Virus record (IMG/VR): IMGVR_UViG_3300027710_000980
Location: 1 to 43,058 of that record
DNA from: a virus
Length of the DNA: 43,058 bases
Strand: one strand, 5' to 3'
Below the pieces are notes generated by a model, which made no database searches, had not been told where the DNA came from, and saw nothing but the letters and a program-made list of their open reading frames with translations. The position numbers and the translations under genes are program-made. Shown here in pieces: positions 7,168 through 41,034 of this stretch; the stretch's first letter is position 1; each line of letters starts with the position of its first letter.

Positions 7168-7170
7168 ATA
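7163..7170 (+). promoter_or_regulatory. TATAAATA late-promoter-like box, 5 nt before ATG
   Basis: TATAAATA lies five bases before the ATG at 7176 and no Shine-Dalgarno sequence is present. It matches the T4-type late promoter core, whose transcripts start about six bases downstream, so the mRNA would be nearly leaderless. In an AT-rich genome one box could be chance; the support comes from the same spacing at other genes in this window. Confidence 0.5.
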
Positions 7171-7175
7171 TTAAA

Positions 7176-9388: not shown

Positions 9389-9390
9389 CA

Positions 9391-13537: not shown

Positions 13538-13565
13538 AAACGCATATAATGACAAGGAACTAGCA

Positions 13566-14252: not shown

Positions 14253-15204
14253 AATTTTAATCACAGGCGGTGCTGGCCTAGTTGGACAAAACTTAACCAA
14301 CAAACTAGTAGAATCTGGATATACAAATATCCGTGTACACCTACACACAAGACAACCTCGTATCAAACATGATGTTGTTGAGTATGTAACAGGTAACTTA
14401 ATGGAATATGCAAATTGCATGGAAATTACTAAAGATGTCGGCATTGTTATTCATGCGGCCGCAAGTACGAGTAACGCAGTTGATACAGTACAAGATCCAT
14501 TGGCGCACGTTACTCCTAACGTGGCCATGAACAACTTCTTAATTGACAGTGCATATCGTAATAAGGTTAAGAAGTATATCTTCATTAGCAGTAACACAGT
14601 CTATCCTCCTAAAGGCGACGAGCCTGTAGTTGAAACAGACTTCCTGTTTGATGACCCGTATCCAGTGTACTTTCCAGTAGGCTGGATGAAACGATATGCA
14701 GAAGTACAATGCGAGTTATATGCAAAGTATCTGCCTAACCCTATGACCACTGTGGTTATCCGTCCTGCAAACCTTTTTGGTCCTCACGACAAATACGACT
14801 TTGCCAAGTGTCACGTAACTCCTGCTACTATTCGCAAGGTTGCTGATAATATGAATCCTATTCCTTTATGGGGTAATGGTACAGAACTTCGTGATTTGCT
14901 ATACATTGATGACTTCATTGAAGCACTACAATTAGTAATTGAAAAGCAAGAAACGTATGATGTATTCAATGTAGGTTGCAATGATGTTTACTCTGTAAAT
15001 GATGTATTAGCTACAATGAAACAGATTGTAGGTAATAACAATCCTGTTGAGTACGTCAGCGGTAAACCTAGCATGATTCCTACAAGACGCATTGACTCTA
15101 ACAAGATTAATCGTGTATTAGGTTGGTCTGCAAAAACTCCGTTAGCTGTTGGACTTAAGAAATCTCATGACTGGTATTTGGCAAACAAGGACGAGTTTAG
15201 ATGA
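14236..15204 (+). CDS. GDP-L-fucose-synthase-like SDR with altered active site
   Basis: A 322-residue extended SDR closest to the GDP-L-fucose synthase (WcaG/Fcl) group: ITGGAGLVGQNL, the VIHAAAS strand, SSNTVYPPKG, RPANLFGPHDKYDFAKCHV and a LRDLLYIDDFIEA segment. The GPHD...HV run is typical of that group. The catalytic YxxxK has lost its Tyr: the lysine is in FPVGWMKRYAE, with Val at the Tyr position. The fucose synthase group reduces 4-keto-6-deoxy sugars after 3,5-epimerisation, and WcaG-like reductases also act on heptoses. It overlaps the oxygenase gene by 17 bases and the next SDR gene by 4 (ATGA). Confidence 0.8.
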   Translation: MNTNTKILITGGAGLVGQNLTNKLVESGYTNIRVHLHTRQPRIKHDVVEYVTGNLMEYANCMEITKDVGIVIHAAASTSNAVDTVQDPLAHVTPNVAMNNFLIDSAYRNKVKKYIFISSNTVYPPKGDEPVVETDFLFDDPYPVYFPVGWMKRYAEVQCELYAKYLPNPMTTVVIRPANLFGPHDKYDFAKCHVTPATIRKVADNMNPIPLWGNGTELRDLLYIDDFIEALQLVIEKQETYDVFNVGCNDVYSVNDVLATMKQIVGNNNPVEYVSGKPSMIPTRRIDSNKINRVLGWSAKTPLAVGLKKSHDWYLANKDEFR

Positions 15205-16136
15205 AAGTATTAATAACAGGTGGAGCGGGGTACTTAGGTTCAACTCTAACTGAACATCTGCTTAACAACGGGTATGAAGTTACAGTTTTTGATAACTTGT
15301 TGTATAAACAGTTGTCTCTTCTCCACTTGTTCAAACGTCCAGGTTTTAAATTTATCAAAGGTGATGTTAGAAATACAGAACAACTGCGGTTATTAGTAGA
15401 AGCACACGATGTGATTATTCCTTTGGCTGCTATTGTTGGTATGCCTGCCTGTAAAGAAAACCCTCAGCTAGCAATTGATGTAAATTATTATCATATTAGA
15501 AAAATTGTAGATGTTCTTAGAGACGATCAAAAGTTAATAATTCCAAATACAAATAGTCAATACGGTTCTAGTCCCGACGTTATCACAGAAGACAGTCCGT
15601 TTAAACCACTAAGCCTTTATGCTGAAACTAAATGCGATGCAGAGGAATACGTTCTTAAGCGTGGCAATGGTGTTGTTCTAAGACTTGCAACGGTGTTTGG
15701 TGTAAGCCCGCGAATGAGGCAAGACTTGTTGGTCAACGACTTTGTTTACAAAAGTGTAACAGATGGATATCTGGTGTTGTTTGAAGCTCACTTTAAACGT
15801 AACTATATCCATGTTCAAGATATTGCTCAAACGTTTGAGTTTATGATTAGAAATTACGATCGGTGTAGAGGACAGGTTTATAATGTAGGTCTAAGTACTG
15901 CCAATCTAAGTAAATTAGAACTAGCAGAAACAATTAAAAAGCATGTTCCTAATCTTGTAATCAAACAGGATGACTTCAAAGAAGACTTTGACAAACGTAA
16001 CTACATTGTATCGAATGAAAAAATTGAAAAATTAGGCTGGAGTCCAATGTATGACCTAGACTACGGCATTAAACAATTGATCGAAGCATATCAAATAATA
16101 ATAAATTACAACAACAGGAGTTTTACTAATCTATGA
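15201..16136 (+). CDS. Extended SDR, nucleotide-sugar epimerase/dehydratase family
   Basis: A 311-residue protein with an intact active site, unlike the two SDRs before it. It has ITGGAGYLGSTLTEHL for NAD(P) binding, FDNLLYKQ, the GDVRN strand, IPLAAIVGMPAC, IPNTNSQYGSS, YAETKCDAEEY for the catalytic Tyr/Lys pair, LRLATVFG and RNYIHVQDIAQTF. Homologues are UDP- or GDP-sugar 4-epimerases, dehydratases and reductases; the exact substrate cannot be read. ATGA overlaps with both neighbours indicate translational coupling. Confidence 0.85.
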   Translation: MKVLITGGAGYLGSTLTEHLLNNGYEVTVFDNLLYKQLSLLHLFKRPGFKFIKGDVRNTEQLRLLVEAHDVIIPLAAIVGMPACKENPQLAIDVNYYHIRKIVDVLRDDQKLIIPNTNSQYGSSPDVITEDSPFKPLSLYAETKCDAEEYVLKRGNGVVLRLATVFGVSPRMRQDLLVNDFVYKSVTDGYLVLFEAHFKRNYIHVQDIAQTFEFMIRNYDRCRGQVYNVGLSTANLSKLELAETIKKHVPNLVIKQDDFKEDFDKRNYIVSNEKIEKLGWSPMYDLDYGIKQLIEAYQIIINYNNRSFTNL

Positions 16137-16558
16137 GCGAACGAAAATACTTACATACACTAGGCGATCTAATCGATCGGTTAAGTATTGTCCAATTAAA
16201 AGAAGTGTTTATTGCAGAACATAAAGAAGAATACTCGAAAGAGATTGCCGATATCGTACACGATATACAAATTATATTAAATGATACGGATGCTAAAATC
16301 ACAGCAGATACTATTCGTGCTATTGTTGTTGTAAGTCAAATGAACTTACATATCTGGCACAACGAATCTAACTATCGACGTGGAATTAAAGATGGCAACA
16401 ATTTAGAACTTACACACGGGCTGAACGGAATTCGCAATACAGCTAAGAATAAGATTCAAGAAGTTGTAGGCGGCCGCCTAGACTATAAAGTTGATTGTCT
16501 GGCTGCTGATTGGAAAGATTGGGAAATTAGTTGGAGTAAAAATGATAAGCAAACCTAA
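16133..16558 (+). CDS. Uncharacterised protein, DUF4254-like
   Basis: A 141-residue all-helical protein. The N-terminus has LGDLIDRLSIVQLKEVF, and the middle has MNLHIWHNESNYRRGIKD followed by LNGIRNTAKNKIQEVVGG. This pattern (Asn/His, Trp/Arg, then a closing N-x-x-R-N helix) resembles the uncharacterised DUF4254 family seen in polysaccharide clusters; that match is from memory and tentative. It overlaps the SDR gene by 4 bases and the following SGNH gene by 17. Function unknown. Confidence 0.5.
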   Translation: MSERKYLHTLGDLIDRLSIVQLKEVFIAEHKEEYSKEIADIVHDIQIILNDTDAKITADTIRAIVVVSQMNLHIWHNESNYRRGIKDGNNLELTHGLNGIRNTAKNKIQEVVGGRLDYKVDCLAADWKDWEISWSKNDKQT

Positions 16559-17396
16559 TGCAGTAGTTTCTAAAGGTATGATATTTGCAGGATGTTCTTT
16601 TACTTGGGGGCAGGGCCTCTACTATTATAGTAATATGCCTTCATTAAAGGAACCACCACCGGATCATTATCGATCACAGTTAGTTAGATGGTCACATCAT
16701 AAATTTCAAGAAACTATTAGGTATCCAAGATTAGTTGCTAATCATTTTAATACATTTGAGTTGACTCAGGATTTCAATGGCGGAGCTACTCACTCGATTA
16801 TAAAGTATTGGGAAGAGAAGTTTTTTCAAACGGGAGATTTTCAAAAATCAATAGAAGATCGAGCCCAAAATTACGACTACGATGACATCTCCCATGTATT
16901 TTTTCAATTTACACAATGGTCCAGAACTGAACTAACTATTGAACATGGCGGAAAAACAATTGGTCCAAAACAAAGATATGAAATATGGCAGAGTCCCGAA
17001 CATCTAAGTACTTTTATACAATGGTTAAATGCACAGAATATTACCTTTGATGAATTTATTCATAGATCTAAAAAGGAAGAAGTTGCTCGTGTTCGAGCTT
17101 TCTTAGAAAAGTTTGAACAACATGGTGCTAAAACAGCAGTACTATCATGGCCAGAAGATATGGTTGAATATATAACAGCAGATCCTTGGTTATCGGAAAG
17201 ATTTATTCAGTTAGAACATAATGGCTCAACTTGGTCTAGCATTGAGAAATTAATGAAGGTTCACCAAGAACTAACAATAAACAGCGATTTTGAATATTTT
17301 GAAGATACTCCAAAAGATCATCACCCTTCTAAAACATGCCATCGTATAATGGCTAATGCTATTATAAAATATTTAGAAAAATCTAAACTCCAATGA
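16542..17396 (+). CDS. SGNH/GDSL-hydrolase-like protein (copy 2)
   Basis: The start is set at the ATG at 16542; a more upstream TTG would lengthen the overlap with the previous gene and add residues unlike the family. The 284-residue protein has MIFAGCSFTWGQGL (nucleophile candidate S19), an FNGGATHSIIKYW segment that fits the Gly/Asn blocks, and KDHHPSKTCHRIMANAI as the C-terminal Asp-x-x-His. A Trp- and Tyr-rich insertion lies between. It is diverged from copies 1 and 3, so the paralogues probably have different acyl-glycan substrates. No secretion signal. Confidence 0.75.
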   Translation: MISKPNAVVSKGMIFAGCSFTWGQGLYYYSNMPSLKEPPPDHYRSQLVRWSHHKFQETIRYPRLVANHFNTFELTQDFNGGATHSIIKYWEEKFFQTGDFQKSIEDRAQNYDYDDISHVFFQFTQWSRTELTIEHGGKTIGPKQRYEIWQSPEHLSTFIQWLNAQNITFDEFIHRSKKEEVARVRAFLEKFEQHGAKTAVLSWPEDMVEYITADPWLSERFIQLEHNGSTWSSIEKLMKVHQELTINSDFEYFEDTPKDHHPSKTCHRIMANAIIKYLEKSKLQ

Positions 17397-18205
17397 TCGA
17401 ACATTTTATCGCAGGAGGATGCAGTTTTACTCACTGGGAAAATAGTTGGGTTAATACATTAGATCATTATTTAAAATCTAAAAATAATGATCTAACTTCT
17501 TCAAATACAGCCTTTCCTAGTCAAGGTCAGGGCATGATTCAAAAAAAAGTAATGCTCGACGTAGTTGAATCTCTTAATAAAGGAATACCGCCTGAAAAAA
17601 TTTTAGTTGTAGTGATGTGGAGCGGAACCAGTAGATCGTCTTGGTACATAGACAATCCCGATATAATTAAAAAAATGGACCTAACGGATAGGCGCTTACT
17701 AGATTTAAAAAATAGTACATCGGACAGCGGTGGCTGGTATAATACTGAGCACGGTAATAACAAAAATGATTATATATTAGGTTTTACACAGCAACATTTT
17801 TTGCTTGATAAATTTCCCAATGGAGTTGGTAAAGTCCATGATAGCCTAGAGAATATTATAATGTTACAAAATTTTTGTAAATTACACAATGTAACATTAA
17901 TTCAACAATTTTATATGGATTTTGTATTTGAGGATATTGAAAGATACAAAAATCACCAAATTATAAATTATCTATATAAACAATTAGATTTTGACAGTAT
18001 AATAACACAGGGTATGTTAGAATACCTAGAGACTTTTTTAAATATTAGAAAAAAGAAATCTGAAACGCTGACACAGGAACAACGTATTGAATCATCTGAG
18101 AATTTGGAATTGTTTTCTTCAGACGGGTTTCATCCAGGTATATATGGAACAAAACTTTGGTGTAAAAATATACTATTTCCATTTTTAAAGAGTAAAAACA
18201 TATGA
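17393..18205 (+). CDS. SGNH/GDSL-hydrolase-like protein (copy 3)
   Basis: A 270-residue protein starting in an ATGA overlap with copy 2. The N-terminus FIAGGCSFTHWENSWVN has the nucleophile candidate S11, the PSQGQGMIQKKV segment fits the Gly block, VVVMWSGTSR the block III strand, and SSDGFHPGIYGTKLW the Asp-x-x-His. The family and three neighbours of the same kind suggest esterase, deacetylase or acyl-transfer chemistry on sugars. It ends in an ATGA overlap with the ThDP beta gene. Confidence 0.75.
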   Translation: MIEHFIAGGCSFTHWENSWVNTLDHYLKSKNNDLTSSNTAFPSQGQGMIQKKVMLDVVESLNKGIPPEKILVVVMWSGTSRSSWYIDNPDIIKKMDLTDRRLLDLKNSTSDSGGWYNTEHGNNKNDYILGFTQQHFLLDKFPNGVGKVHDSLENIIMLQNFCKLHNVTLIQQFYMDFVFEDIERYKNHQIINYLYKQLDFDSIITQGMLEYLETFLNIRKKKSETLTQEQRIESSENLELFSSDGFHPGIYGTKLWCKNILFPFLKSKNI

Positions 18206-18744
18206 ATAAACCAACAACTGCCCCTTATCAATCTGCACTAACTGACGCAATGACATTCTTAGGAGAACAACCAGATGTAGTTTTTATAGGACAGCAGATT
18301 GTCTATGCTGGAAATCCTATGAGTACCACACTAGGCAATGTACCTAAAGATAAAATGATTGAAGTTCCGGTAATGGAAGAATCCCAGATGGGTATGTCAT
18401 TGGGTATAGCAATGACTGGTAAGACTGTTATTACATTTTATCCTCGTTGGGATTTTATATTATTAGCAGCTAATCAGTTAATTAATCATATTGATAAATT
18501 TAAACTTATGACCGGAAAGACGGCTAACATATTAATTAGATTAGGCAAAGGCGCCGATACTCCTTTAGACCCGGGGCATCAACACAAAGGTAATTATTTT
18601 TCTGAATTCAAAGCAATGTGTCCTAACACAACGTTCCATAACTTAACCAGTGCTGAAAATATTGTAGATGCTTATAAGACGGCCTATGCTGAAGGCGGCG
18701 TACATGTGTTAGTTGAATACCCTGAATTGTATTATAATAAGTGA
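18202..18744 (+). CDS. ThDP-dependent E1-beta-like subunit (Pyr domain only)
   Basis: A 180-residue protein similar to the pyrimidine-binding domain of E1-beta and transketolase C-terminal subunits: SALTDAMTFLGEQPDVVFIG at the start, then VPVMEESQMGMSLGIAMTGK with the Glu expected to activate the ThDP aminopyrimidine, WDFILLAANQLINHIDKF, and GHQHKGNYFSEFKAMCP. Ordinary E1-beta chains run to about 325 residues; the usual C-terminal domain is absent here. With the PP-domain gene at 10547 it would form a minimal split enzyme, similar in size to the two-gene sulfopyruvate decarboxylase. Convergent overlap of 13 bases with the radical SAM gene that follows. Confidence 0.8.
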   Translation: MNKPTTAPYQSALTDAMTFLGEQPDVVFIGQQIVYAGNPMSTTLGNVPKDKMIEVPVMEESQMGMSLGIAMTGKTVITFYPRWDFILLAANQLINHIDKFKLMTGKTANILIRLGKGADTPLDPGHQHKGNYFSEFKAMCPNTTFHNLTSAENIVDAYKTAYAEGGVHVLVEYPELYYNK

Positions 18745-19835
18745 TGAAAGTTATGGTTAACTTTGTCTAAGTTAGCTATCTTCTGCAGTTCTAAAATAAA
18801 GTCATTGAACAGAGGGTGTGTTGGTTCAAATATAGAAAGTTCACTTACCTCTTTAATAGAAAACTTTCCAGTCTGCCAATGCACTAACTGACGATAGTGT
18901 ACATCAAATCCTACAGTAGAGTCTTTAAAAATATCAGAAATGATATTGTACATCTGTAACATCTCTTTATAGTTGTGTTGGCTAACGACCATTGAGAATG
19001 TCATATGTACGATTGATGACTGAGTACTTAGGAACTTAATGTTTTCTATAAGTTTATCCCAATCGCCGTTGAGTCTAGTTACATTCTCGTAGGTATCTTT
19101 GCATCCAGCGTCTATGCTTATCTCTACTACTTTGATAAACTTTTTAGATTTTAAACTGTTCCACATTTTTTCATTAAGTAGAACACCATTAGTAATAATT
19201 TGTATACATTCTAAATTTGGATAGAGATCTTCATTAAAATTGATTAGATAGTCTCTGTAGATCTTGGAATAAAAAGGATCTCCGCTACCTGTTATCATTA
19301 TCTTTTTAAGTGAGGCAGCAAAAGATTCTTCTATAAATGACAACAATAATAATTTCCTTGCATGTTCATCAGAGTCGACATCGTCGTTTGAAACAAGGTC
19401 GGCTCGGCAAGAAGGACATTTTAAATTACAACTCCTATCGAATCCAAAAAGTATTTCTTCAGGCAAGCCTTGGAAATTTTTAACATCATCAACCGTTTTA
19501 ATATTGTAAGTATGTTCAAAAGCTGATCTTTCCAAGAGTACCGGTGCGGGTATCCCGGTGTTGATCAAACTTGACAGTGCAGGACATATCTTATGATTGC
19601 AGTACTTATACGAGCCATCTACTACTGATTTTCTAACTTCTTGAATTGAAGGTGAGTTCCAATTTTTTAATAAATCTTCATCCGACGATACTGGATCCCA
19701 ATTAGTATGGTTATCTTTGGTTTCTCGAATGTTAGTAGGACACCAAGAAGGGCAACAAATATACTGGCTAGTCCCTTGTACGTCCAAATATCTAAAAGGG
19801 GAAATGCAAACGTATTTTTTTAAAATATCTGACAT
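18732..19835 (-). CDS. Radical SAM protein (copy 3, opposite strand)
   Basis: A 367-residue radical SAM protein, the only large gene of the sugar block on the minus strand. The cluster motif is C136-N-L-K-C140-P-S-C143, followed by KKIMITGSGDPFYSKIY (SAM-binding Gly segment), IQIITNGVLL and VVEISIDAG, the standard strand series. N-terminal cysteines (KYVCISPFRYLD, YICCPSWC, KYCNHKIC) could hold an auxiliary cluster like SPASM proteins but placed first. It is not a close copy of the pair at 4146/5728. It is divergently transcribed from the nucleotidyltransferase gene across a 90-base region with a shared promoter and a palindrome. Confidence 0.88.
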   Translation of the reverse strand: MSDILKKYVCISPFRYLDVQGTSQYICCPSWCPTNIRETKDNHTNWDPVSSDEDLLKNWNSPSIQEVRKSVVDGSYKYCNHKICPALSSLINTGIPAPVLLERSAFEHTYNIKTVDDVKNFQGLPEEILFGFDRSCNLKCPSCRADLVSNDDVDSDEHARKLLLLSFIEESFAASLKKIMITGSGDPFYSKIYRDYLINFNEDLYPNLECIQIITNGVLLNEKMWNSLKSKKFIKVVEISIDAGCKDTYENVTRLNGDWDKLIENIKFLSTQSSIVHMTFSMVVSQHNYKEMLQMYNIISDIFKDSTVGFDVHYRQLVHWQTGKFSIKEVSELSIFEPTHPLFNDFILELQKIANLDKVNHNFHHLL

Positions 19836-19858
19836 GTAATTGAAATGAGTTAATATCT

Positions 19859-19887
19859 TTACTTACCTAGTTTAATGAGTGTATAAT
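19859..19887 (+). promoter_or_regulatory. Sigma70-like promoter for the nucleotidyltransferase-cupin gene
   Basis: TTACTT at 19859-19864, a 17-base spacer, and TATAAT at 19882-19887. The -10 is a perfect match and the -35 is partial. Transcription would start near 19894 and give a leader of about 30 bases to the ATG at 19926. Confidence 0.55.
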
Positions 19888-19911
19888 AAATTTACCAACA
19901 AATTTGTTGAA
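19883..19911 (-). promoter_or_regulatory. Divergent sigma70-like promoter for the radical SAM gene
   Basis: On the minus strand, TTCAAC (19911-19906), a 17-base spacer, and TATTAT (19888-19883). Its -10 occupies the same bases as the plus-strand -10, so the two promoters could not be occupied at once. The palindrome at 19896-19909 overlaps its spacer and -35 element. Confidence 0.45.
19896..19909. promoter_or_regulatory. 14-bp perfect palindrome, candidate operator
   Basis: CAACAAATTTGTTG is its own reverse complement. It lies at about +3 to +16 of the plus-strand promoter and within the minus-strand promoter, a position where a dimeric repressor would block both. No regulator gene is visible in the window. 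Confidence 0.45.
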
Positions 19912-19925
19912 GTTAAATAAATCAA

Positions 19926-20678
19926 ATGAAAATTGTATTAGTAACAGGTGGCTTTGATCCACTACATAGCGGACACATTGAATACTTTAAGGCTGCTCGT
20001 CAACTCGGCAATCTCTTGGTTGTAGGTGTTAACAGTGATGCTTGGCTTGCACGTAAAAAGGGTAGATCCTTTATGCCAATAACAGAGCGCAAAGCAATCA
20101 TTGAAAATATATACCAAGTACATCGTGTTATAGAATTTAATGATGACGATAGCAGTGCTATAGATGCTATTCAACAGGTAAAGGAAATGTTTCCTAGAGA
20201 TAAGGTTATCTTTGCCAATGGCGGCGATCGTACCAAAGACAACATTCCAGAAATGGTATTTGAAGATGTTGAGTTTGCGTTTGGAGTAGGAGGCACCAAT
20301 AAAGCTAATAGCAGTAGTTGGATACTTGAAGAGTGGAAAGCTCCTAAGACTGAACGCCCATGGGGATACTATCGTGTCCTACATGATGTTGTTGGTACTA
20401 AAGTTAAAGAGTTAACAGTTGAACCCGGACAGAAATTGAGTATGCAACGACACGCTAGCCGAGCAGAGCACTGGCATGTTGCTGAAGGGCAGTGTATAGT
20501 ACATTCAATGATGCCCAATGGATATGCACTTCCAGTAACTGAGCTGTCAACTCATATGTCTTATAAAGTTGCCAAAGGAGATTGGCATCAACTATCGAAT
20601 CCCTACGATAAACCTTGTAGGATAGTCGAAATACAATACGGAGCCGCCTGCGATGAGTCAGATATTGAGCGTAGATAA
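19926..20678 (+). CDS. Nucleotidyltransferase (HldE/TagD-like) fused to PMI-type cupin
   Basis: A 250-residue fusion. Residues 1-135 are a cytidylyltransferase-like nucleotidyltransferase: TGGFDPLHSGHIEYF with the HxGH site at H14-H17, VGVNSDAWLARKKGRSFMP and ERKAIIENI, closest in pattern to the ADP-heptose synthase transferase domain. Residues about 138-250 are a cupin of the type II phosphomannose isomerase C-terminus: ERPWGYYRVLHD, VKELTVEPGQKLSMQRHASR, EHWHVAEGQC and KGDWHQLSNP, with His residues for a metal. The N-terminal domain would activate a sugar-phosphate and the cupin isomerise or bind it. A likely entry step of the pathway. Confidence 0.85.
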   Translation: MKIVLVTGGFDPLHSGHIEYFKAARQLGNLLVVGVNSDAWLARKKGRSFMPITERKAIIENIYQVHRVIEFNDDDSSAIDAIQQVKEMFPRDKVIFANGGDRTKDNIPEMVFEDVEFAFGVGGTNKANSSSWILEEWKAPKTERPWGYYRVLHDVVGTKVKELTVEPGQKLSMQRHASRAEHWHVAEGQCIVHSMMPNGYALPVTELSTHMSYKVAKGDWHQLSNPYDKPCRIVEIQYGAACDESDIERR

Positions 20679-21216
20679 AGATGCGTTCTCTAGCGGGCAA
20701 GTTGGCAGTAAGATATGGCTCTGTGAAGAATTAGAAAAACTATTCTCTAGTATAGACACAGTTTGGATCTACGGTGGCTGGTATGGTATAACAGCATTCT
20801 TACTGCGTAGTAGGGGACAACTAGATATAGGAACAATTAGAAGTTATGACATTGATCCTTACTGCGAACAAGTTGCAGACATGTTCAATGAGAATTGGGT
20901 GTATCAAGATTGGAAGTTTAAAGCACATACCGCTGACTGTAATAAGTTAGATTTTAAGTCTGCACCTCCTGATCTAGTAATTAATACCAGCACAGAGCAT
21001 TTTAATAGTTTTGATTGGTGGCATCGTATTCCAAAAGGAACTACAGTAGTGTTACAGGGTAACAATATGATACACAATGATCATTTTGTACATAGCACTT
21101 GTCTAGCAGAATTTGTAGCACAGTTTTCTGTAACTGAAATATTGTACACAGGTGAGAAACAATTTGTTTATCCAGACTGGCGCTTTACTAGGTATATGCT
21201 AATAGGTGTCAAATGA
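20653..21216 (+). CDS. Class I SAM methyltransferase-like protein
   Basis: A 187-residue protein overlapping the fusion gene by 26 bases. The N-terminus VGSKIWLCEELEKLF is followed by a Rossmann-like core: VWIYGGWYGITAFLL at the place of motif I, SYDIDPYCEQVADMF for the acidic ribose-binding strand, PPDLVINTSTEHF and KGTTVVLQGNN. This fits the overall class I methyltransferase layout, although motif I is atypical (YGGWYG for the usual GxGxG). Similar proteins occur in phage sugar cassettes. Substrate unknown. Confidence 0.6.
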   Translation: MSQILSVDKDAFSSGQVGSKIWLCEELEKLFSSIDTVWIYGGWYGITAFLLRSRGQLDIGTIRSYDIDPYCEQVADMFNENWVYQDWKFKAHTADCNKLDFKSAPPDLVINTSTEHFNSFDWWHRIPKGTTVVLQGNNMIHNDHFVHSTCLAEFVAQFSVTEILYTGEKQFVYPDWRFTRYMLIGVK

Positions 21217-21995
21217 CCACTGATTTATTTTTATACGCTAATGGTGATAGTTTTGTTAAAGGAGACGAACTAGGTAATTTCTTAAAAACAGATTTCCCTG
21301 GTTATTACAATTTTAGCGAAGAAAGACCTGAGCGTATGGACTCGTGGATCTTAGAAGACCAACAAAAAAATAAATTTAGATCTACTAATTTTTTTAAAAC
21401 AATTAGCGCGGAAGAAGATAAAAGGAATTTTGCCGCTAAGATTCAAAAACATTTAAATTGTAATTTTTTAAATAATGCACAAGGTGGCAGCAGTAATGAC
21501 AGAACAACTAGGATTGCATTACAAGATTTAATAGAAATAAAAAAACAACATAAAAATATTGTTGCACTTATAGGTACTGCTGAACCGTCAAGATTAGAAT
21601 TACCAAATGACAACACTGATCTTCTTTGGAAACCTTATTTCTTGGCAAAAACTGATAATATCAATAATCCGATATCTCAATTTTATTTGTTAAACCTAAA
21701 TCGTTACCACAGAATGGTTATGTTCTATAAAAATGTAATTCTTCTTCAAGATTTTTGTAAAGTAAATAGTATAAAGTTACTTTGGGTCGCAGGAAATACT
21801 AACATTGTTGAAAATAATGGTGTTGATACAGATGCAGAAGATTATAATAATTTTAAAGAATATGCAAATTTTAGTTATGCAGTAGAAATGCCTAAAATAG
21901 CCAAAGATATCGATATTGGCGTTATGTGCCCAGGGCGACACTTTGCAGAAAAAGTACATGATGCCGTAGCAACGTTACTGCTAGGAAAAATTTAA
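21213..21995 (+). CDS. SGNH/GDSL-hydrolase-like protein (copy 4)
   Basis: A 260-residue protein with YANGDSFVKGDEL (classic G-D-S, nucleophile candidate S13), FLNNAQGGSSNDRTTRIALQ as the Gly/Asn blocks, VALIGTAEPSR as the third strand, and CPGRHFAEKVHDAVATLL with a C-terminal His. It is the most diverged of the four copies and has a classic GDS instead of GCS. It starts in an ATGA overlap and is followed by a very small basic protein. Confidence 0.7.
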   Translation: MTTDLFLYANGDSFVKGDELGNFLKTDFPGYYNFSEERPERMDSWILEDQQKNKFRSTNFFKTISAEEDKRNFAAKIQKHLNCNFLNNAQGGSSNDRTTRIALQDLIEIKKQHKNIVALIGTAEPSRLELPNDNTDLLWKPYFLAKTDNINNPISQFYLLNLNRYHRMVMFYKNVILLQDFCKVNSIKLLWVAGNTNIVENNGVDTDAEDYNNFKEYANFSYAVEMPKIAKDIDIGVMCPGRHFAEKVHDAVATLLLGKI

Positions 21996-22004
21996 GGAAA
22001 ACCG

Positions 22005-22121
22005 ATGTTTAAAAGATTTTATAATTTTATTGTTAACGAAATTAAATTTAGAATAGAACGACGAAAAATTCGTAAAAGAATGAAAGAACTTCAAAAACGA
22101 GATCCATTCATCTACAAATAA
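22005..22121 (+). CDS. 38-residue basic protein
   Basis: A small gene read directly from the sequence: MFKRFYNFIVNEIKF at the start, then an Arg/Lys-rich helix (RIERRKIRKRMKELQKR) and the end DPFIYK. AAGGAAAACCG before the ATG provides a Shine-Dalgarno sequence. It fits between the SGNH gene and the carbamoyltransferase, which starts two bases after its stop. An aromatic, hydrophobic start followed by a strongly basic helix suggests membrane-surface or nucleic-acid contact. I recall similar short proteins ending in DPFIYK in aquatic phages, but I cannot verify that here. Confidence 0.6.
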   Translation: MFKRFYNFIVNEIKFRIERRKIRKRMKELQKRDPFIYK

Positions 22122-22122
22122 T

Positions 22123-23598
22123 ATGGACTATATTGGACTAAGTTGCGGTTTCCACGATGCCGCTGTGAGTGTTGTTGATTCATCTGGGAATATCGTATTT
22201 TCCGGACACAGTGAGCGATATAGTAAGAGTAAGCATGACGAAAATCTTTGTGGATCTATAATAACAGACGCCCTGCAATACACTGAAGACTACCAAATTC
22301 ACTATTATGAAAGACCGCTACTAAAGTATTTGCGACAATTAGTAGCAGGCCAGAAACCTGCTATCAGTAATGTAAATGTTAAAAATATAATCGGAGCTTC
22401 TAACATGCAGTTGTTAGGCAATCAGAAAGTTTATACTCATAATCACCATTTAAGTCACGCCGCCGCAGGATTCCAAACAAGTCCCTACGATGATGCCACG
22501 GTTGTGATTATTGATGCTATAGGGGAGTTTGACACTATTACCATTTGGCATGCTGAATACGACAGTGACACTGGCCGAGCTGAATACAAGAAGTTATGGT
22601 CTCAATCTTATCCTCATAGTATTGGCTTATTTTACAGTGCAATGACTTCTAGTGTAGGACTGCGCCCTCTTGATGAAGAGTATATATTAATGGGCATGGC
22701 AGCTTATGGATCTCCTAAGGTAGACCTAACCGGGCTAGTAGCCAACGAAACAAAATTAAAGTTTAATTACAACCTACATAAGGGAGTAGATCCAGACCTG
22801 ATTAAAGGTGCTGATCATTATGACATAGCTGCCAGTAGTCAAGAATTGGTTGAAACTTTAATAACAAGTGTGATTAAAAAAGCAAAACAACTAGGGCATA
22901 GTAACAATCTAGTCTATGGCGGCGGCGTTGCTCTTAACTGTAGTGCTAATAGGCTACTAGGTGAGTACTATAATAACATTTGGATTATGCCTAATCCTGG
23001 AGATGCTGGTAGTAGTCTTGGCGCAGCCGCTCTAGGCTACAAATATAAAATACAATGGACTGATGCGTTCCTTGGCTATGAGATACCGGGACCGTATCCA
23101 GTTGACAATATTATCAAAGAATTGTACACTAATAAGATAGTCGGAGTAGCCAGCGGTCGGGCAGAGTTTGGCCCGAGAGCATTGGGCAATAGGAGTTTGT
23201 TGGCAGACCCTAGAGGCCCGGAGATCAAGGATAAAGTAAATGAAATTAAACGTAGACAAAAGTTCAGACCTTTCGCCCCAGTCATTTTGGAGGAGTATGC
23301 TGATAGTTATTTTGATATGCCTCGTGGGTTCAGTAACAGTAGGTATATGCAAGTCATCGCTCGTTGCAGGCATCCTGACTTATTTCCTGCTATCGTTCAC
23401 GCTGACGGGACTTCTAGGGTACAAACTGTTCCAAGAGATGGAAGTGGAATAAGAAAACTGTTAGAACGTTGGTATGATGAGACAGGTTGTCCAATGTTAT
23501 TAAACACTAGCCTTAACATTCGTGGTGAGCCCATGGTCAATGATCGTGCAGACGCAGATCGATTCGAATCATTGTATAAAATCCAAGTCTGCTCCTAA
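22123..23598 (+). CDS. Carbamoyltransferase (NodU/CmcH/TobZ family)
   Basis: A 491-residue O-carbamoyltransferase. The N-terminal Kae1-like domain starts with YIGLSCGFHDAAVSVVD, has HNHHLSHAAAGFQTSPYDDA (the metal-binding His residues of this family) and VVIIDAIGEFDTITIW. The later YrdC-like domain is marked by YGGGVALNCSANRLLGE, PNPGDAGSSLGAAALGY, ASGRAEFGPRALGNRSLLAD and the final LLNTSLNIRGEPMVN. The enzyme uses carbamoyl phosphate and ATP to carbamoylate a hydroxyl, often on a sugar. It is slightly shorter than the 540-600 residues of typical bacterial forms. It is the last gene of the sugar block. Confidence 0.93.
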   Translation: MDYIGLSCGFHDAAVSVVDSSGNIVFSGHSERYSKSKHDENLCGSIITDALQYTEDYQIHYYERPLLKYLRQLVAGQKPAISNVNVKNIIGASNMQLLGNQKVYTHNHHLSHAAAGFQTSPYDDATVVIIDAIGEFDTITIWHAEYDSDTGRAEYKKLWSQSYPHSIGLFYSAMTSSVGLRPLDEEYILMGMAAYGSPKVDLTGLVANETKLKFNYNLHKGVDPDLIKGADHYDIAASSQELVETLITSVIKKAKQLGHSNNLVYGGGVALNCSANRLLGEYYNNIWIMPNPGDAGSSLGAAALGYKYKIQWTDAFLGYEIPGPYPVDNIIKELYTNKIVGVASGRAEFGPRALGNRSLLADPRGPEIKDKVNEIKRRQKFRPFAPVILEEYADSYFDMPRGFSNSRYMQVIARCRHPDLFPAIVHADGTSRVQTVPRDGSGIRKLLERWYDETGCPMLLNTSLNIRGEPMVNDRADADRFESLYKIQVCS

Positions 23599-35241: not shown

Positions 35242-38025
35242 ATGACAACAAGAATCAAATTACGCAGAGATACGGCAGCTAACTGGACAGAAAACAATCC
35301 AATCTTAGCCGCAGGTGAGCCAGGTTTAGAAACCGACACCGGCAAGACCAAATATGGTGATGGCACCACAGCCTGGACCAGTTTAGGCTATGCCACAGGC
35401 GGTATCACAGCCCGTGAACAGATTGGCTACTTTATGACCTATGGCGACATCCCCAACACCACCAACGGTGATGATTGGTGGTTTGACAGTGTCAAAACTG
35501 ATCCTGATGGTAATGCCTACTACCTCGGTGGTGCTGATATCAGTGCATGGGCTCGCGTAGTTAAAGTCAACTCACTAGGAGAGCTACAGTGGGACAAGGA
35601 GATAAGTTGGGCAGATGGATATGAAGGCGCTGCCAACAGTGCTGTCTATAATACTGCCACTGATCAACTGGTCGTTGTAGCAGAGATGTGGAAAAGCAAT
35701 ACTAACACCGATCAAGGTGCCGCAGTAATCACATTAAACGCCATCACCGGTGCTATGGTTGGCAACCCTATAATGATTCGTGACGAAATCACTGAAGATG
35801 GTTCCCCCATTGGTACTATTGACCCCAGCGACATCGTACTTGACAGCAACGGTGATCCTATCGTAGTTGGCCATAAAAATGGTAATGCCAGCATCTACGC
35901 ACTGACAACTACTTCAGTGGGTGCTACTGATGCTATCTTTGTTGACTCAGCAATATTCACTGACAAGACTCCGTTCCCCTACAACGAGTGGTACATCACA
36001 GGAACCAATATTCTAGGTGAATCACTGGTCGTTGATGTAAACTACTACTACAATCAATCTGCTACCGCACTACCACACACTGGCACAGGTGCTACATTTA
36101 CTATTGATGATGTTGGCGACGGCACATATGGAAACACTGTTGTCACTGGTGGTGGTAGTGGCTACGTAGTAGGAAACAGGATTCTAGTTCTAGGAACTGC
36201 CCTAGGTGGTGCTACACCTGCTAACGATGGTACTATTACTGTTACCGGTGTAGATGCCGGAGAAATCACTGGTGTTTCTATTAGTGGAACAGCCGCAGGA
36301 ACTACCAGCACATCTTATTCTAGTATTACAGGTACTAACATTGCATCAGGCATCAATGCGTTTATCACCGTTCAGTGGAAAGTAACCGCAGACGGACAGG
36401 CCTACTTCCCAGACTATCCAGGAAGATTTGGAGCTGCTATGGCCCAAGCAGGTAGCGGCTTTGCTCTAGGTGATACACTGTATTTGAATCCTGAACAATA
36501 CGGCGGTTCAACCAGTGCTACTATCGCAGTGACCAACGTTGACGGCAGCGGCCAAATCATTGATTTCACATTTACAGGAACATTCAATACCAGCACAATC
36601 AAGTTGGTCACTAGTAACAGCATAGACTTTGCCACAGAAGGCAACTGGACCGCAGTGAACTACAGTGCAGAAGCGTTTGTCTGGACACCAAGTTGGGCAA
36701 AAACTTTTGGAAATTCAGATTTTGACAAGGTCAACGCAGTGGCCCGAGACAGTGCAGGCAACATTTACCTAGCCTGTAAATCATATGACGACACTCGACT
36801 AAGTCAAAACGGCTACGGTATTGACATCGCAGTGTTGGTCAAACTAGACAGCACAGGTAATCTATTATGGTCCAAGAGTTTTACACCCGACGGGTATGTT
36901 GGCAATTTTACCGATGGCTATACTGGTGTAGCAGTGGACAGCAATGACGATGTCATTGTTGCAGAAAATAACGTTATCACTAAAGTTGACAGCACTGGCA
37001 CAGTTATTTGGCAAAAAATCATTGCCGACGGCGAAGCATTGGGTATGTGGAATACCTGTGTAGCAGTTGACAGCAATGACAATGTCTATGTAAACAGTGA
37101 ATACGATTACCTGGGTCAAACTACCAATGATGACTTTTTAGTTTCCAAGTTTGACAGTGATGGCAATGTATTATGGCAGAGAGAAATCGGTACCAGCACC
37201 AATGAAAATTCAAACTGGAACAATGGATACCAGATTCTATCCGTGGTCAACGATCAAGTTTACATTGCCGGCAGTAGCGTACAAGGCACTGATGATTCAG
37301 CCATAGCTGTATCGTTTCCTGCAGACGGTAGCGGAGCAGACATCAATCACAAAGGTCGTTTCTTTATGCATACGGCAACCTGGGCCGTGAGCACCAGTAC
37401 AGCCACAGTCTACGATGTCACATTTGCAATAACCGCAACACAGGTCACATTGACCACTGAAACAAACTTTACCTGTGTGACTACTTCAACAGACATCTCT
37501 AGTCTAGCACTACGCACAGGCGATGTTGATGGTAGAATTGAAGATTTGTATTCTATTAGTTTCGAGGACGGATCAGTTCAGACCACTGCCTACACTGGCA
37601 GACTGGATAGACTCGAGAACTTCATACAGAGTACCAACAGCTTCTATCCAAACATAACACACGCTAACAAACTCCTGCGTTGGGACAATGATGGTAATAG
37701 TAACAGTGTACAGATCTACATTCCTCACAACTCAGATGTACCATTCCCCATAGGAACACAACTACACTTTGTCAAAGAGCGTGGTATTAATGCGTTTATG
37801 TTCTGGTGTTGGGGCGTCGTTGGCAGTGAAAGTGATATGCGTATTATTCCAAGCAGCCCTGCTAGCGGTCTAGAAGGTAATGTCTACAACACCGACGAAG
37901 GTTGGAGTGTGCGTGATCCGAATAACAATAAGGTTCCAGCCAGAGCTACGCTGACCAAAACTGATACCAACACTTGGTTATTAGAGTGCTCTAGTTCAGT
38001 TCACATTATGGACTGGAGTTGGTAA
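35242..38025 (+). CDS. Large tail-fibre/receptor-binding protein with propeller-like repeats
   Basis: A 927-residue virion protein. The N-terminus RIKLRRDTAANWTENNPILA, AAGEPGLETDTGKTKYGDGT matches the phage hyaluronate-lyase-like N-terminal domain used to attach fibres. Residues about 70-230 and 480-700 have beta-propeller-like (SBBP-type) repeats: VNAVARDSAGNIYLACKSYD, GVAVDSNDDVIVAENNVITK, CVAVDSNDNVYVNSEYDYLG with the recurring LDSTGNLLWSKSF. Between them lies a Gly/Thr-rich module (DVGDGTYGNTVVTGGGSGYV). A host-range or receptor-binding role is likely; enzymatic activity is not evident. Confidence 0.8.
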   Translation: MTTRIKLRRDTAANWTENNPILAAGEPGLETDTGKTKYGDGTTAWTSLGYATGGITAREQIGYFMTYGDIPNTTNGDDWWFDSVKTDPDGNAYYLGGADISAWARVVKVNSLGELQWDKEISWADGYEGAANSAVYNTATDQLVVVAEMWKSNTNTDQGAAVITLNAITGAMVGNPIMIRDEITEDGSPIGTIDPSDIVLDSNGDPIVVGHKNGNASIYALTTTSVGATDAIFVDSAIFTDKTPFPYNEWYITGTNILGESLVVDVNYYYNQSATALPHTGTGATFTIDDVGDGTYGNTVVTGGGSGYVVGNRILVLGTALGGATPANDGTITVTGVDAGEITGVSISGTAAGTTSTSYSSITGTNIASGINAFITVQWKVTADGQAYFPDYPGRFGAAMAQAGSGFALGDTLYLNPEQYGGSTSATIAVTNVDGSGQIIDFTFTGTFNTSTIKLVTSNSIDFATEGNWTAVNYSAEAFVWTPSWAKTFGNSDFDKVNAVARDSAGNIYLACKSYDDTRLSQNGYGIDIAVLVKLDSTGNLLWSKSFTPDGYVGNFTDGYTGVAVDSNDDVIVAENNVITKVDSTGTVIWQKIIADGEALGMWNTCVAVDSNDNVYVNSEYDYLGQTTNDDFLVSKFDSDGNVLWQREIGTSTNENSNWNNGYQILSVVNDQVYIAGSSVQGTDDSAIAVSFPADGSGADINHKGRFFMHTATWAVSTSTATVYDVTFAITATQVTLTTETNFTCVTTSTDISSLALRTGDVDGRIEDLYSISFEDGSVQTTAYTGRLDRLENFIQSTNSFYPNITHANKLLRWDNDGNSNSVQIYIPHNSDVPFPIGTQLHFVKERGINAFMFWCWGVVGSESDMRIIPSSPASGLEGNVYNTDEGWSVRDPNNNKVPARATLTKTDTNTWLLECSSSVHIMDWSW

Positions 38026-38031
38026 TCACTG

Positions 38032-38039
38032 ATTAAATA
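38032..38039 (+). promoter_or_regulatory. ATTAAATA box before the methyltransferase gene
   Basis: ATTAAATA, 17 bases before the TTG start. A transcript starting about six bases downstream would keep the AGGAGG site. Tentative. Confidence 0.3.
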
Positions 38040-38044
38040 TCGAC

Positions 38045-38050
38045 AGGAGG
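38045..38050 (+). promoter_or_regulatory. AGGAGG ribosome binding site that fixes a TTG start
   Basis: AGGAGG is six bases before TTG at 38057, the ideal spacing. No ATG is available nearby in this frame, so the Shine-Dalgarno sequence decides the rare TTG initiation codon of the methyltransferase-like gene. Confidence 0.8.
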
Positions 38051-38056
38051 CCAATC

Positions 38057-38815
38057 TTGTCGATAACAACACACTGGGCCGCTCGTAGTCTAACATATGG
38101 ACAAAGCGGCCCTCCCCTTAACCCCAATCAAGAAATCATAGACGGTTTTACCAGTCTTGTACCTACCAACGGACATATTCTACTGTTAGGAGTGACCCGT
38201 AAAATAGCAGAAGCCTACGATCAAGTCACCGCTGTGGATTACAGCGAGGCTATGATTGAACGAGTATGGCCAGGCAATACAGATTCTAAAAAAGTACACT
38301 ACGATAACTGGCTCACAGTAGACCTACCCTTAGAACACTTTGACGGCATACTAGGAGATGGCAGTGTGAATATGCTGGCCTATCCTGTGGAAGTTAGGCA
38401 GTTATTCAAACGCAGCCTAAAATGGCTCAAGCCCGGCGGTGTGTTTGCCTGCCGTATGTGGACTCGCCCTGATGTTCCAATAACCAAAGAAAGAATACTA
38501 GCAGAGGCTGCTAACCCTACTATGGGCTTTACAGCATTTCGCAGATTGTTTAATATGCTAATAGCAGAACGAGATGGTAGCATATTTCCTGTGACTAAGA
38601 TCGCGGCTTTATTTGATGAAATGTTTCCTGATCCTACAGTCTTACCTTGGCCAGATACTACTAGTATTGATGCCTACCGTACCAGCACATCAACATCGTG
38701 GTTTCCCACTAGACAAGAGATCATAGACCTCGCTCCTGCAGGCAGCAGGTTTGTAGATGTGGGCACCTACGACATAGCAGACACCTGCCCTATTTTAACA
38801 TTTGTCAAGCAATGA
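38057..38815 (+). CDS. Class I SAM-dependent methyltransferase
   Basis: A 252-residue methyltransferase starting with TTG. The fold order is visible: HILLLGVTRKIAEAYDQVTA as the region of motif I, followed by VDYSEAMIERVW (acidic ribose-binding strand), DGILGDGSVNMLAYP (motif IV region), LKPGGVFACRMWTRP (strand 5 with the PGG turn), and a C-terminal cap. Motif I is imperfect (LLGVTRK). It is the first of three overlapping genes with the adenylate-forming enzyme and the binding protein. Substrate unknown; it may modify a fibre or surface component. Confidence 0.8.
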   Translation: MSITTHWAARSLTYGQSGPPLNPNQEIIDGFTSLVPTNGHILLLGVTRKIAEAYDQVTAVDYSEAMIERVWPGNTDSKKVHYDNWLTVDLPLEHFDGILGDGSVNMLAYPVEVRQLFKRSLKWLKPGGVFACRMWTRPDVPITKERILAEAANPTMGFTAFRRLFNMLIAERDGSIFPVTKIAALFDEMFPDPTVLPWPDTTSIDAYRTSTSTSWFPTRQEIIDLAPAGSRFVDVGTYDIADTCPILTFVKQ

Positions 38816-40089
38816 AGTTAGAACAGATAATAACTCTGCTGGAAGAATCGCAGTGGTGGACTAGAGAACAGATTGAGGATAGACAGCAGGCTGCACTGGC
38901 CCGCCTTGTTGCTCACCACAGCGAACACACTGAATCGTTTAAGCAAAGACTAACCGAGCAAGGACTTACATCCCAAGATGTCAGCACACTAGAAGGGCTC
39001 GCTAAGTTAAAGCCTATCACTAAACGAGACATACAACAGGCAGGAGAATCGTTTAACAGTGAGGCAGTTCCGCCTAGTCACTTGCCCATACGCAAGTCAC
39101 AGACCAGCGGCCGCACTGGAGAACCCGTGACCATACTGAAAACAGAAATGAATCACCAGTTCTTCTGTGCTCTAATGTTCCGCGAGCATAGTTGGTGGCA
39201 GCACAATTACCGGCACAGGTTAGCCAGCGTCCGTGCTGTTCATAGACAGTATGAAGAAAGCCCTAACTGGGGAGGACCTGTGGCAGAGCAGTTCGAAACT
39301 GGTCCAGCTATAGGCATACCATTGAACTTGGATGTTAGACAGCAGTTGGCCTACTTGAACAAGTTCGATCCTGATATGTTGAGCATACACGCAGGCGTCT
39401 TGGCAGCTATGTGTTCAATATGGGAATCAGAAGGCTACACACTAAATCTAAAGGCGATTAAAAATGTTGGAGAAACACTGCATCCTAGCTTGCGAGAGCG
39501 AGTAAAGAAGATTACAGGTGTAAACATACGAGATGTATACTCCAGCAGTGAAGTTGGACTCATTAGTATTGAGTGTCCTGGTACTGGCTTACAACACACT
39601 ATGGAGGAAACTCTACTAGTGGAAGTTCTAAATGAAGCAGGGCAACCTTGTAAGCCTGGCGAACTGGGTCGTGTTGTGATTACAGACTTTTACAATACAA
39701 TCAGTCCTATGATACGCTATGACATTGGAGACTATGCTGAAGTTGGAATACCTTGTACCTGTGGCCGTAATCATCGTACACTAAAACGGATTGCGGGTCG
39801 TGAGCGCGGCCTGTTCCGCAGAGCCAACGGTGACAGATTCTGGCCCACAGCAGGACAGTACGCAGCCGAAAAGGTTATTAAAGTAAATCAATGGCAGATC
39901 ATACAGCACAGTCTAGAGGACATTGAATACAAACTGGTCACTGATCATCCACTGACCAAAGAACAACACAGCCAGTTACTGGAAATATTTTGCAAGAAAC
40001 TAGGCGTTGACTGTGTTAGAATAACAGAATACAGAACACAACTACCCACAGACGGAAAATATGAGGAATCAATATGTTTAATAAAATAA
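38812..40089 (+). CDS. PaaK/CapK-like adenylate-forming enzyme
   Basis: A 425-residue member of the phenylacetate-CoA ligase (PaaK)/CapK branch of adenylate-forming enzymes. Motifs: the ATP-binding QTSGRTGEPVTIL, YSSSEVGLISIECPG (Y-x-S-S-E-x-G), MIRYDIGDYAEV (Y-D-I-G-D, ribose-binding Asp), and CTCGRNHRTLKRIAGRERG. Members activate a carboxylate as acyl-AMP or acyl-CoA; CapK-type relatives are linked with capsule synthesis. Rare in phages. It starts in an ATGA overlap with the methyltransferase and ends overlapping the Bug protein, so a joint role in acylating a surface molecule is possible. Confidence 0.88.
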   Translation: MKLEQIITLLEESQWWTREQIEDRQQAALARLVAHHSEHTESFKQRLTEQGLTSQDVSTLEGLAKLKPITKRDIQQAGESFNSEAVPPSHLPIRKSQTSGRTGEPVTILKTEMNHQFFCALMFREHSWWQHNYRHRLASVRAVHRQYEESPNWGGPVAEQFETGPAIGIPLNLDVRQQLAYLNKFDPDMLSIHAGVLAAMCSIWESEGYTLNLKAIKNVGETLHPSLRERVKKITGVNIRDVYSSSEVGLISIECPGTGLQHTMEETLLVEVLNEAGQPCKPGELGRVVITDFYNTISPMIRYDIGDYAEVGIPCTCGRNHRTLKRIAGRERGLFRRANGDRFWPTAGQYAAEKVIKVNQWQIIQHSLEDIEYKLVTDHPLTKEQHSQLLEIFCKKLGVDCVRITEYRTQLPTDGKYEESICLIK

Positions 40090-41009
40090 TAGTCACAATA
40101 TTGTTGCTATTCACACTCACAGCACAAGCACAGGCCAAACCCATCAAAGTAGTAATACCATTTGGTGTTGGTGGATTGGTAGACAATCTCAATAGAAGAT
40201 TTGCCGAAGCACTGGAAGAAGAAATGGGCCGCAGAGTTGTTCTCGAAGCTAGACCAGGAGCCGCAGGCTACATAGGCCTAAAACATATAGCACAGAACAA
40301 GTCAGACGAAGTCTTGATCACTGTGATAGATGCTATGGCTGTCAGCAATGTAATTCTGCTACACAATGATATTGAAGTTAGTAATTTTAGATACCTCACA
40401 CAGTTAGGTACTACTACTAGTATTGCACTGGCAGTTAAGAAGGGCAGTGCTTTAAACACAGTAGCGGCCCTGCGTAGTCATAGAGGACGCACCATCAACA
40501 TAGGCATCAACGGCCTGGCAGGAGCACATCATTATTATAATTGGTTGTTGAGCAGTCAACTGCCCAATACTCCTATTATGGAAGTGCCCTACAAAGGTGT
40601 TAATGAAATGCTGCAAAATCTCATAGGCGGACACATTGATGCAGGTTGGGCGAACTTGGCCAGTTTAGAACTTCAAGAACAAGCAGGTACTATTGAGATT
40701 GTGGCTATCATTCAACAGCAAAGAGTTGATACTAGTCCTAATGTGCGTACTTTTGCAGAACAAGGTATTAAAATGCCGCAGAATGCCAAGTGGATGCTGA
40801 TAACTAACAACACCACTGACGCGGATACTGTTAAACAGATAGATCTAGCAGTTAGAAAGTTAATGCGTAATCCGCAGTTTGTTCAATTGATACGGACCAC
40901 AGGACTGGTACTCGAACCAAACCTAGCAGATAACGCAGAACGATCAATGGCAGACAGTTTGCAACAGCAGACCAAGTTTATTGAATATATTAAAACAACA
41001 AGGAAATAA
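40074..41009 (+). CDS. Bug/TctC-type periplasmic solute-binding protein
   Basis: A 311-residue protein with a clear Sec signal peptide: basic start (MFNKII), hydrophobic core (VTILLLFTLTAQ) and a cleavage site after AQAQA near residue 21. The mature part has the family pattern PIKVVIPFGVGGLVDNLNRR, VVLEARPGAAGYIGLKHIAQ, the central INIGINGLAGAHHYYNWLL, VPYKGVNEMLQNLIGGHIDA and a late TFAEQGI segment. Bug proteins bind carboxylates for tripartite tricarboxylate transporters; no TctA/TctB membrane genes are present here. It overlaps the PaaK-like gene by 16 bases. It may serve host uptake, or have been reused as a ligand-binding module. Confidence 0.9.
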   Translation: MFNKIIVTILLLFTLTAQAQAKPIKVVIPFGVGGLVDNLNRRFAEALEEEMGRRVVLEARPGAAGYIGLKHIAQNKSDEVLITVIDAMAVSNVILLHNDIEVSNFRYLTQLGTTTSIALAVKKGSALNTVAALRSHRGRTINIGINGLAGAHHYYNWLLSSQLPNTPIMEVPYKGVNEMLQNLIGGHIDAGWANLASLELQEQAGTIEIVAIIQQQRVDTSPNVRTFAEQGIKMPQNAKWMLITNNTTDADTVKQIDLAVRKLMRNPQFVQLIRTTGLVLEPNLADNAERSMADSLQQQTKFIEYIKTTRK

Positions 41010-41026: not shown

Positions 41027-41034
41027 TATAAATA
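41027..41034 (+). promoter_or_regulatory. TATAAATA box, 6 nt before ATG at 41041
   Basis: A perfect TATAAATA six bases upstream of the ATG, with no Shine-Dalgarno sequence; transcripts from a T4-type late promoter here would begin at about the start codon. Confidence 0.5.

Follow-up and report, generated by a model that had tools for sequence, protein, structure and literature searches.

Auxiliary genes of phages are often single captured host genes. The cyanophage PstS, a phage-encoded periplasmic binding protein, is thought to serve host uptake (PMC10976474). Proteins of the TctC/Bug family (PF03401; BugD, BugE, TphC) are capture proteins for uptake or signalling, with BctC acting in signalling; their ligands are mostly carboxylates, and orphan TctC proteins are normal (PMC5812351). 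A late promoter combined with a start-hiding hairpin is known for the T4 genes e, soc, 49 and I-TevI (PMC3014915, PMC2988022). In bacteria, genes for PaaK-like enzymes are found adjacent to a methyltransferase (MTase) gene, for example in Aestuariivirgaceae.

The locus described here is part of a 43,058-base virus record of IMG/VR, which was analysed over its whole length (the window), and it resembles each of these systems in part. Its Bug shares the predicted fold, the PFxxGGxxD signature, the signal peptide and the orphan status with the TctC/Bug family, but it belongs to a distinct viral clade with at most ~32% identity to the probed cellular Bugs, adjoins an MTase-PaaK pair and is located among tail-fibre genes. 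Like PstS, it is a phage-encoded protein of the periplasmic binding type that comes without a dedicated transporter (PMC10976474); PstS, however, is of the phosphate ABC type, is a recognisable host gene and has no conserved synteny, whereas the TctC-type protein found here has fixed partner enzymes and a late lock. The phage adenylating enzyme has the ANL motifs in common with the PaaK/F390-synthetase-like (CapK) enzymes, and, as in the Aestuariivirgaceae pair (identity up to 48% for PaaK and 42% for the MTase), the MTase adjoins PaaK; in contrast, the bacterial pairs come without a Bug and without a fibre context, and the phage PaaK scores below every NCBIfam equivalog cut-off. As in the T4 genes, the late promoter lies in the arm of a hairpin that would hide the start in read-through mRNA, but here the hairpin precedes a metabolic or envelope cassette, and the late mRNA is predicted to be leaderless in eight relatives.

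Gene content of the cassette

The original prediction described an MTase, a PaaK/CapK-like enzyme and a secreted Bug protein, encoded by overlapping genes inside a fibre region. Pfam, PDB profiles and motifs back all three gene identities, the ORFs overlap tightly by 4 and then 16 bases, and the upstream gene encodes a tail fibre. Judged from its sequence, the trio is a genuine phage cassette amid tail-fibre genes, as opposed to stray host DNA. The features of the locus are as follows.

35242..38025, + strand: tail fibre with Mtd_N domain (Pfam Mtd_N 3.6e-14; PHROG tail fibre); flank, outside the cassette
38033..38039, + strand: T4-type late promoter element TTAAATA; predicted transcript start 38045, placed via T4 spacing (T4 precedent: PMC3014915, PMC2988022)
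38038..38065, + strand: predicted RNA hairpin with an 11-bp stem (38038-38048/38055-38065), which in read-through mRNA would cover the TTG start together with part of AGGAGG
38057..38815, + strand: SAM-dependent methyltransferase (MTase), 252 aa, TTG start (Pfam Methyltransf_11 2e-06; homologues in 13 virus contigs)
38812..40089, + strand: PaaK/CapK-like ANL adenylating enzyme, 425 aa (PDB profile match to PaaK 4e-24; ANL motifs intact)
40063..40068, + strand: ribosome site GAGGAA of the Bug gene, within the 3' end of the PaaK-like gene (GAGGAA or close variant in relatives)
40074..41009, + strand: TctC/Bug periplasmic solute-binding protein, 311 aa, signal peptide ~40074-40136 (Pfam TctC 9.8e-26; predicted structure)
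41027..41034, + strand: TATAAATA, late promoter of the following gene (41041), marking the cassette end (promoter-element scan)

The first protein scored above the Pfam threshold for class I methyltransferases (Methyltransf_11, 28.8 bits, cut-off 21.2), has a divergent canonical motif I and had no match in the isolate-phage collection. An anti-phage defence system was considered and rejected, as the set matched no PADLOC system and the sole partial match was that of the MTase domain to mad2 (6.4e-10).

For the second protein, the Pfam AMP-binding match (0.0075) was under its cut-off, as were all matches to NCBIfam PaaK/F390-related models. With 51.6 bits against a cut-off of 646 (TIGR02155) and 70 against 700 (NF041878), it is so far under every equivalog cut-off that it is not PaaK (phenylacetate-CoA ligase) proper. 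Its assignment as PaaK-like is nevertheless firm at the sequence level, given the profile matches to solved PaaKs (4r1l, 4e-24; 2y27, 8e-19) and the presence of the P-loop, A4, A7 and C-terminal lysine motifs of ANL enzymes; the motifs [ST]SGxTGxP, YSxxE, RYDxGD, CxCGR and GK[YF]EE were present in 14 of 14 phage homologues.

The third protein reached 91.3 bits with Pfam TctC (cut-off 27), the homologues in the phage records likewise being above cut-off, and its N-terminus (MFNKIIVTILLLFTLTAQAQA/KP) reads by eye as a Sec signal peptide. The AlphaFold2 model (pLDDT 85.9) has the two-domain TctC fold, and its top PDB matches are all TctC/Bug proteins (Foldseek 7ndr, 2.4e-18; 2dvz, TM 0.80). The TctC signature PFxxGGxxD, representing the carboxylate-coordinating loop P-F-x-A-G-G-x-x-D, is intact in 10 of 11 proteins, the eleventh carrying a YxxGGxxD variant (AYGAGGLTD), and this speaks for the carboxylate theme that had been proposed for the locus. 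The Bug had also been described as lacking transporter partners; in agreement, a search for TctA in ten phage records, which may be fragments, found none, while the Polaromonas control matched three times. A missing TctAB permease partner does not exclude a Bug, many orphan Bugs being without one.

Conservation of the trio in uncultured phages

Whether other phages keep the trio was a point raised by the original prediction, and they do. Searches and gene-order analysis identified ten other IMG/VR contigs in which the full trio is present with unchanged gene order (L010, L011, L012, L013, L014, L016, L007, L018, L021 and L022; L010 and L018 are 60 kb long, L011 90 kb and L022 96 kb), which is more than chance would produce. 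Three more contigs (L015, L017 and the 108 kb contig of L020) carry MTase-PaaK followed by a DUF2061 membrane protein, typed in L020, in the slot of the Bug, and in L099 the Bug end lies at the contig edge. The overlaps vary slightly: the choice of PaaK start differs in L007 and L012-like loci, and MTase and PaaK are just apart in L018 and L022. In all 14 loci, translation of the third gene would start from an ATG within the 3' end of PaaK, preceded there by a ribosome site of GAGGAA or similar sequence, and thus the third position (slot 3) appears to be translationally coupled to PaaK and swappable.

Upstream, the cassette adjoins a gene for either a fibre (Mtd_N or LamG domain) or a C1 peptidase of the papain type, and downstream it is followed by fibres or other phage genes; in L013, L016 and L021 the sequence starts inside the MTase gene and the upstream flank is missing. 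Members of the papain-like C1 peptidase family (assigned by Pfam on L007) were located before or near the cassette, among fibre genes, in seven phages (L007:2723-3496, L012:4738-6438, L014:531-1310, L015:8421-9209, L017:1444-2187, L020:8289-9056 and L022:6920-7744). A fatty-acid desaturase is added in L007 (DesA family) and L018. Between the window and L010 the trio is better kept than the preceding fibre, with 71-78% identity (about 77/73/71% by gene) compared with about 50-51.5%.

Among isolate phages, PaaK and Bug matched just unannotated faecal 'Bacteriophage sp.' records (22-27% identity). The literature search returned no report of a phage PaaK near tail fibres or of a phage TctC, and one tctA domain match in SUP05 virus contigs. 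The component families and the lock are all known; neither the isolate-phage collection nor the literature searched showed a kept phage cassette joining them. The carriers are a group of large T4-like uncultured phages. A search for Gp23, run without a positive control, gave no match, and the ribonucleotide reductase of one relative (G006) was nearest to those of Xanthomonas and Stenotrophomonas phages (56-60%), which does not fix the host.

Origin and selection

A separate origin of the cassette had been proposed from a GC content apparently higher than that of the 5-9 kb region. The difference itself was confirmed (45.8, 45.6 and 41.8% for MTase, PaaK and Bug, with genes between 4.1 and 9.4 kb at 32-37%), but the interpretation was not: the neighbouring upstream fibre also has a GC content of 45.8%, and the cassette matches it in GC and GC3. 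As an indicator of foreign origin, GC was rejected; the low-GC part is the 4-18 kb sugar cluster. A low-GC cluster spanning 4146-23598 encodes radical SAM proteins, nucleotide-sugar epimerases, an HldE-like enzyme and a Nol-like carbamoyltransferase, a gene content that suggests glycan or surface-sugar synthesis. Two window ORFs ~7 kb apart (10547-11182 and 18202-18744) match two halves of phrog_34187 (positions 4-200 and 234-401).

The 14 phage PaaKs formed one clade (SH-aLRT 100) beside the Aestuariivirgaceae MTase-PaaK pair, and MTase and PaaK distances were correlated (r = 0.91; maximum of 2000 permutations, 0.41). The trio Bugs, 38-71% identical to the window Bug, grouped together with moderate support (74% of bootstraps) on long branches; the cellular Bugs of 14 probed genomes were at most ~32% identical to the phage Bug, and a sample of 300 Burkholderiales genomes contained no Bug at E <= 1e-35; more similar cellular Bugs may exist outside these samples. 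Comparison of the window and L010 gave dN/dS ratios of ~0.12 (MTase), 0.09 (PaaK) and 0.16 (Bug), which are rough because dS is above 1 and which show, for these aligned genes, purifying selection on the cassette.

A host-derived chimera or recent host capture, a worry attached to the original prediction, is therefore exceedingly improbable and was rejected. The one observation in its favour is that the isolate-phage collection has no phage with the cassette; against it stand thirteen other contigs with the cassette, the viral PaaK clade, the Bug distances, the GC match and the phage-type promoters inside, and the same arrangement on independent contigs effectively refutes a chimera.

Adjacent bacterial MTase-PaaK pairs belonging to these two families (L023, L024, L025, L026, L028, L034, L038, L087 and L088) were scattered over Proteobacteria and occurred in reversed order in Chlamydiae. 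The pairs examined had no conserved neighbours hinting at function and no adjoining Bug.

Late-promoter element and predicted start-hiding hairpin

In the window, a late promoter element is embedded in a stable hairpin over the start codon of the MTase gene, as in the T4 locks. This hairpin (-15.7 kcal/mol, z -4.4) was matched in stability by 0 of 200 shuffled sequences. The predicted start at 38045 falls within its left arm; the late RNA expected from this start lacks the start-hiding hairpin and has a folding energy of -6.8 kcal/mol. The z-scores of the corresponding hairpins were -4.0 in L010, -6.2 in L011, -5.3 in L012, -6.4 in L017 and -6.7 in L018; the hairpins of L007 and L015 were weaker, and L020 showed no clear lock (z -1.6).

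Across the window, L007-L022 and L117-L127, the T4 late-promoter core TAAATA before start codons peaks at 5 nt and at 15-22 nt. The 5 nt class comprises 21 of 369 ORFs (8 cassette MTases and 13 others) over a background of ~0.7 per position and, at T4 spacing, predicts leaderless late mRNAs, many of them in this phage group. In L007, L011, L012, L014, L015, L017, L018 and L022, the MTase promoter is contained in a near-perfect palindrome, CATAGCAGT-TAAAT-ACTGCTATG, with the ATG in the right arm. The palindrome is kept with 0-3 mismatches while the proteins are often just ~50-60% identical, and a search of all IMG/VR for the exact 22-base palindrome identified five contigs, every one a cassette contig. 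The window and L010 use another hairpin than the palindrome lineages; two differing hairpins with the same predicted job are good evidence of selection for late-only translation, which is the probable mode of the cassette. Among all late-promoter ORFs, start pairing over 0.6 was seen in 39%, compared with 22% of controls; as this is merely somewhat above the controls, the lock is claimed for the cassette alone and not for the whole phage group. Start-hiding hairpins were also present at L018:18625 and L020:18446.

Functions in the envelope or the virion would be more expected to carry a late lock than a metabolic aid, and the lock somewhat favours envelope and virion views. One such view is that the MTase and the adenylating enzyme modify the co-produced neighbouring fibre proteins, with the Bug as a slot-3 passenger. 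The site among fibres, the lock and the retention of MTase-PaaK even without a Bug are in line with virion modification, but the same pair is found in bacteria without fibres and the secreted Bug is left unexplained, which makes this explanation unlikely.

A predicted outer-membrane barrel and further phage Bugs

At nine other loci, slot 3 is followed by a gene for a small secreted protein. Its model (pLDDT 88) shows a barrel of 10 strands that resembles outer-membrane porins and designed barrels; Pfam matches were below cut-off. We consider it a predicted outer-membrane barrel. The window has no barrel directly after the Bug. The barrel family (e.g. L007:6475-7026) was found in ~130 virus stretches, on contigs of up to 374 kb, mostly without the trio, and is thus not cassette-specific.

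Elsewhere, genes for TctC homologues directly adjoin or alternate with genes for a PP-loop protein of ~390 residues with an SGG[SAI]DS motif, all in the same direction; this was seen in five further phage populations or regions (L126:14343-19500, L147:10357-12454, L161:8003-10212, with L181 as the same case, L165:9109-11251 and L172:7584-10497). The barrel lies within a few kb of this pair in L147, L161/L181, L165 and L172 (not in L126), and L126 and the trio of L022 are on the same contig. Further SGGxDS proteins follow in L126 and L127. Pfam and PHROG gave no convincing family for the PP-loop protein, and its reading as an ATP-pyrophosphatase is provisional since it rests on the SGGxDS motif. 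Phage Bugs outside the PP-loop pattern were found in L211 and L212, and several phage records have two or three TctC copies.

The enzymes could alternatively make an acyl or methylated surface compound, with slot 3 and the barrel exporting it or occupying the envelope, which would keep progeny or rival phages off the dying cell or debris. Such late envelope remodelling would suit the lock, the periplasmic or membrane protein in slot 3 with an outer-membrane barrel often next to it, the desaturase of two relatives and the sugar cluster of the window. No transferase, flippase or surface target was identified, however, and TctC proteins are known for capture in uptake or signalling (PMC5812351), so that we regard remodelling as possible but doubtful. 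That slot 3 swaps, and that barrel and Bug are apart in other phages, would also be expected of unlinked accessory genes gathered in a variable slot with no joint function; this is decidedly improbable given the overlapping, coupled genes, their constant order across diverged phages, the correlated MTase and PaaK distances and the purifying selection.

Proposed function

We tentatively favour a module that handles carboxylates late in infection and extends into the envelope, most likely by Bug-assisted import and cytoplasmic activation; its direction, ligand and product we infer. The hairpin would silence the cassette on read-through mRNA until late transcription begins inside the hairpin. The phage would then put the carboxylate-binding Bug into the periplasm, together with the small outer-membrane barrel in many relatives, and the Bug would hand an organic acid over to a TctAB-type permease of the host. 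In the cytoplasm, the PaaK-like enzyme would activate the acid to an acyl-AMP or acyl-CoA, and the MTase would modify the acid or its product.

Acid handling is suggested by the signature of the Bug and by its pairing with enzymes of adenylating type. The proposed module is supported by the trio in ten other contigs, the MTase/PaaK correlation, the single clade of phage PaaKs, the dN/dS ratios, the motifs, the TctC fold, the two forms of the lock, the barrel at nine loci, the Bug/PP-loop pairs, the orphan status usual for TctC proteins (PMC5812351) and the precedent of PstS (PMC10976474). Counting against it, the three relatives with DUF2061 in place of the Bug indicate that the enzymes can do without a Bug, the phage has no transporter, bacterial MTase-PaaK pairs have no adjoining Bug, and the barrel is mostly apart from the trio and not directly after the window Bug.

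The missing transporter and the signalling role of BctC (PMC5812351) would also be compatible with a Bug that binds a periplasmic host acid and feeds or starves a host sensor kinase in the manner of BctC, while the enzymes make or destroy the signal. No sensor or regulator was identified, however, and late expression would leave little time, making signalling an improbable role; import with activation is the reading retained here.

As a broader and more speculative proposal, large phages may encode envelope-spanning carboxylate pathways in which a barrel, one or more Bugs and a paired adenylating enzyme (ANL here, apparently PP-loop elsewhere) make up a phage-specific route to capture, activate and use an organic acid late under a translational lock. 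In place of a single captured gene, the phages described here have a multi-gene set of two enzymes and a periplasmic binding protein, to which relatives add a barrel; this set has been kept long enough to form its own clades and apparently has its own late switch. The repeated pairing of a phage Bug with an adenylating-type enzyme provides a testable rule that relates the Bug ligand to the acid of its partner enzyme, and the lock and the predicted leaderless late mRNAs would extend T4-style timing control to uncultured phages.
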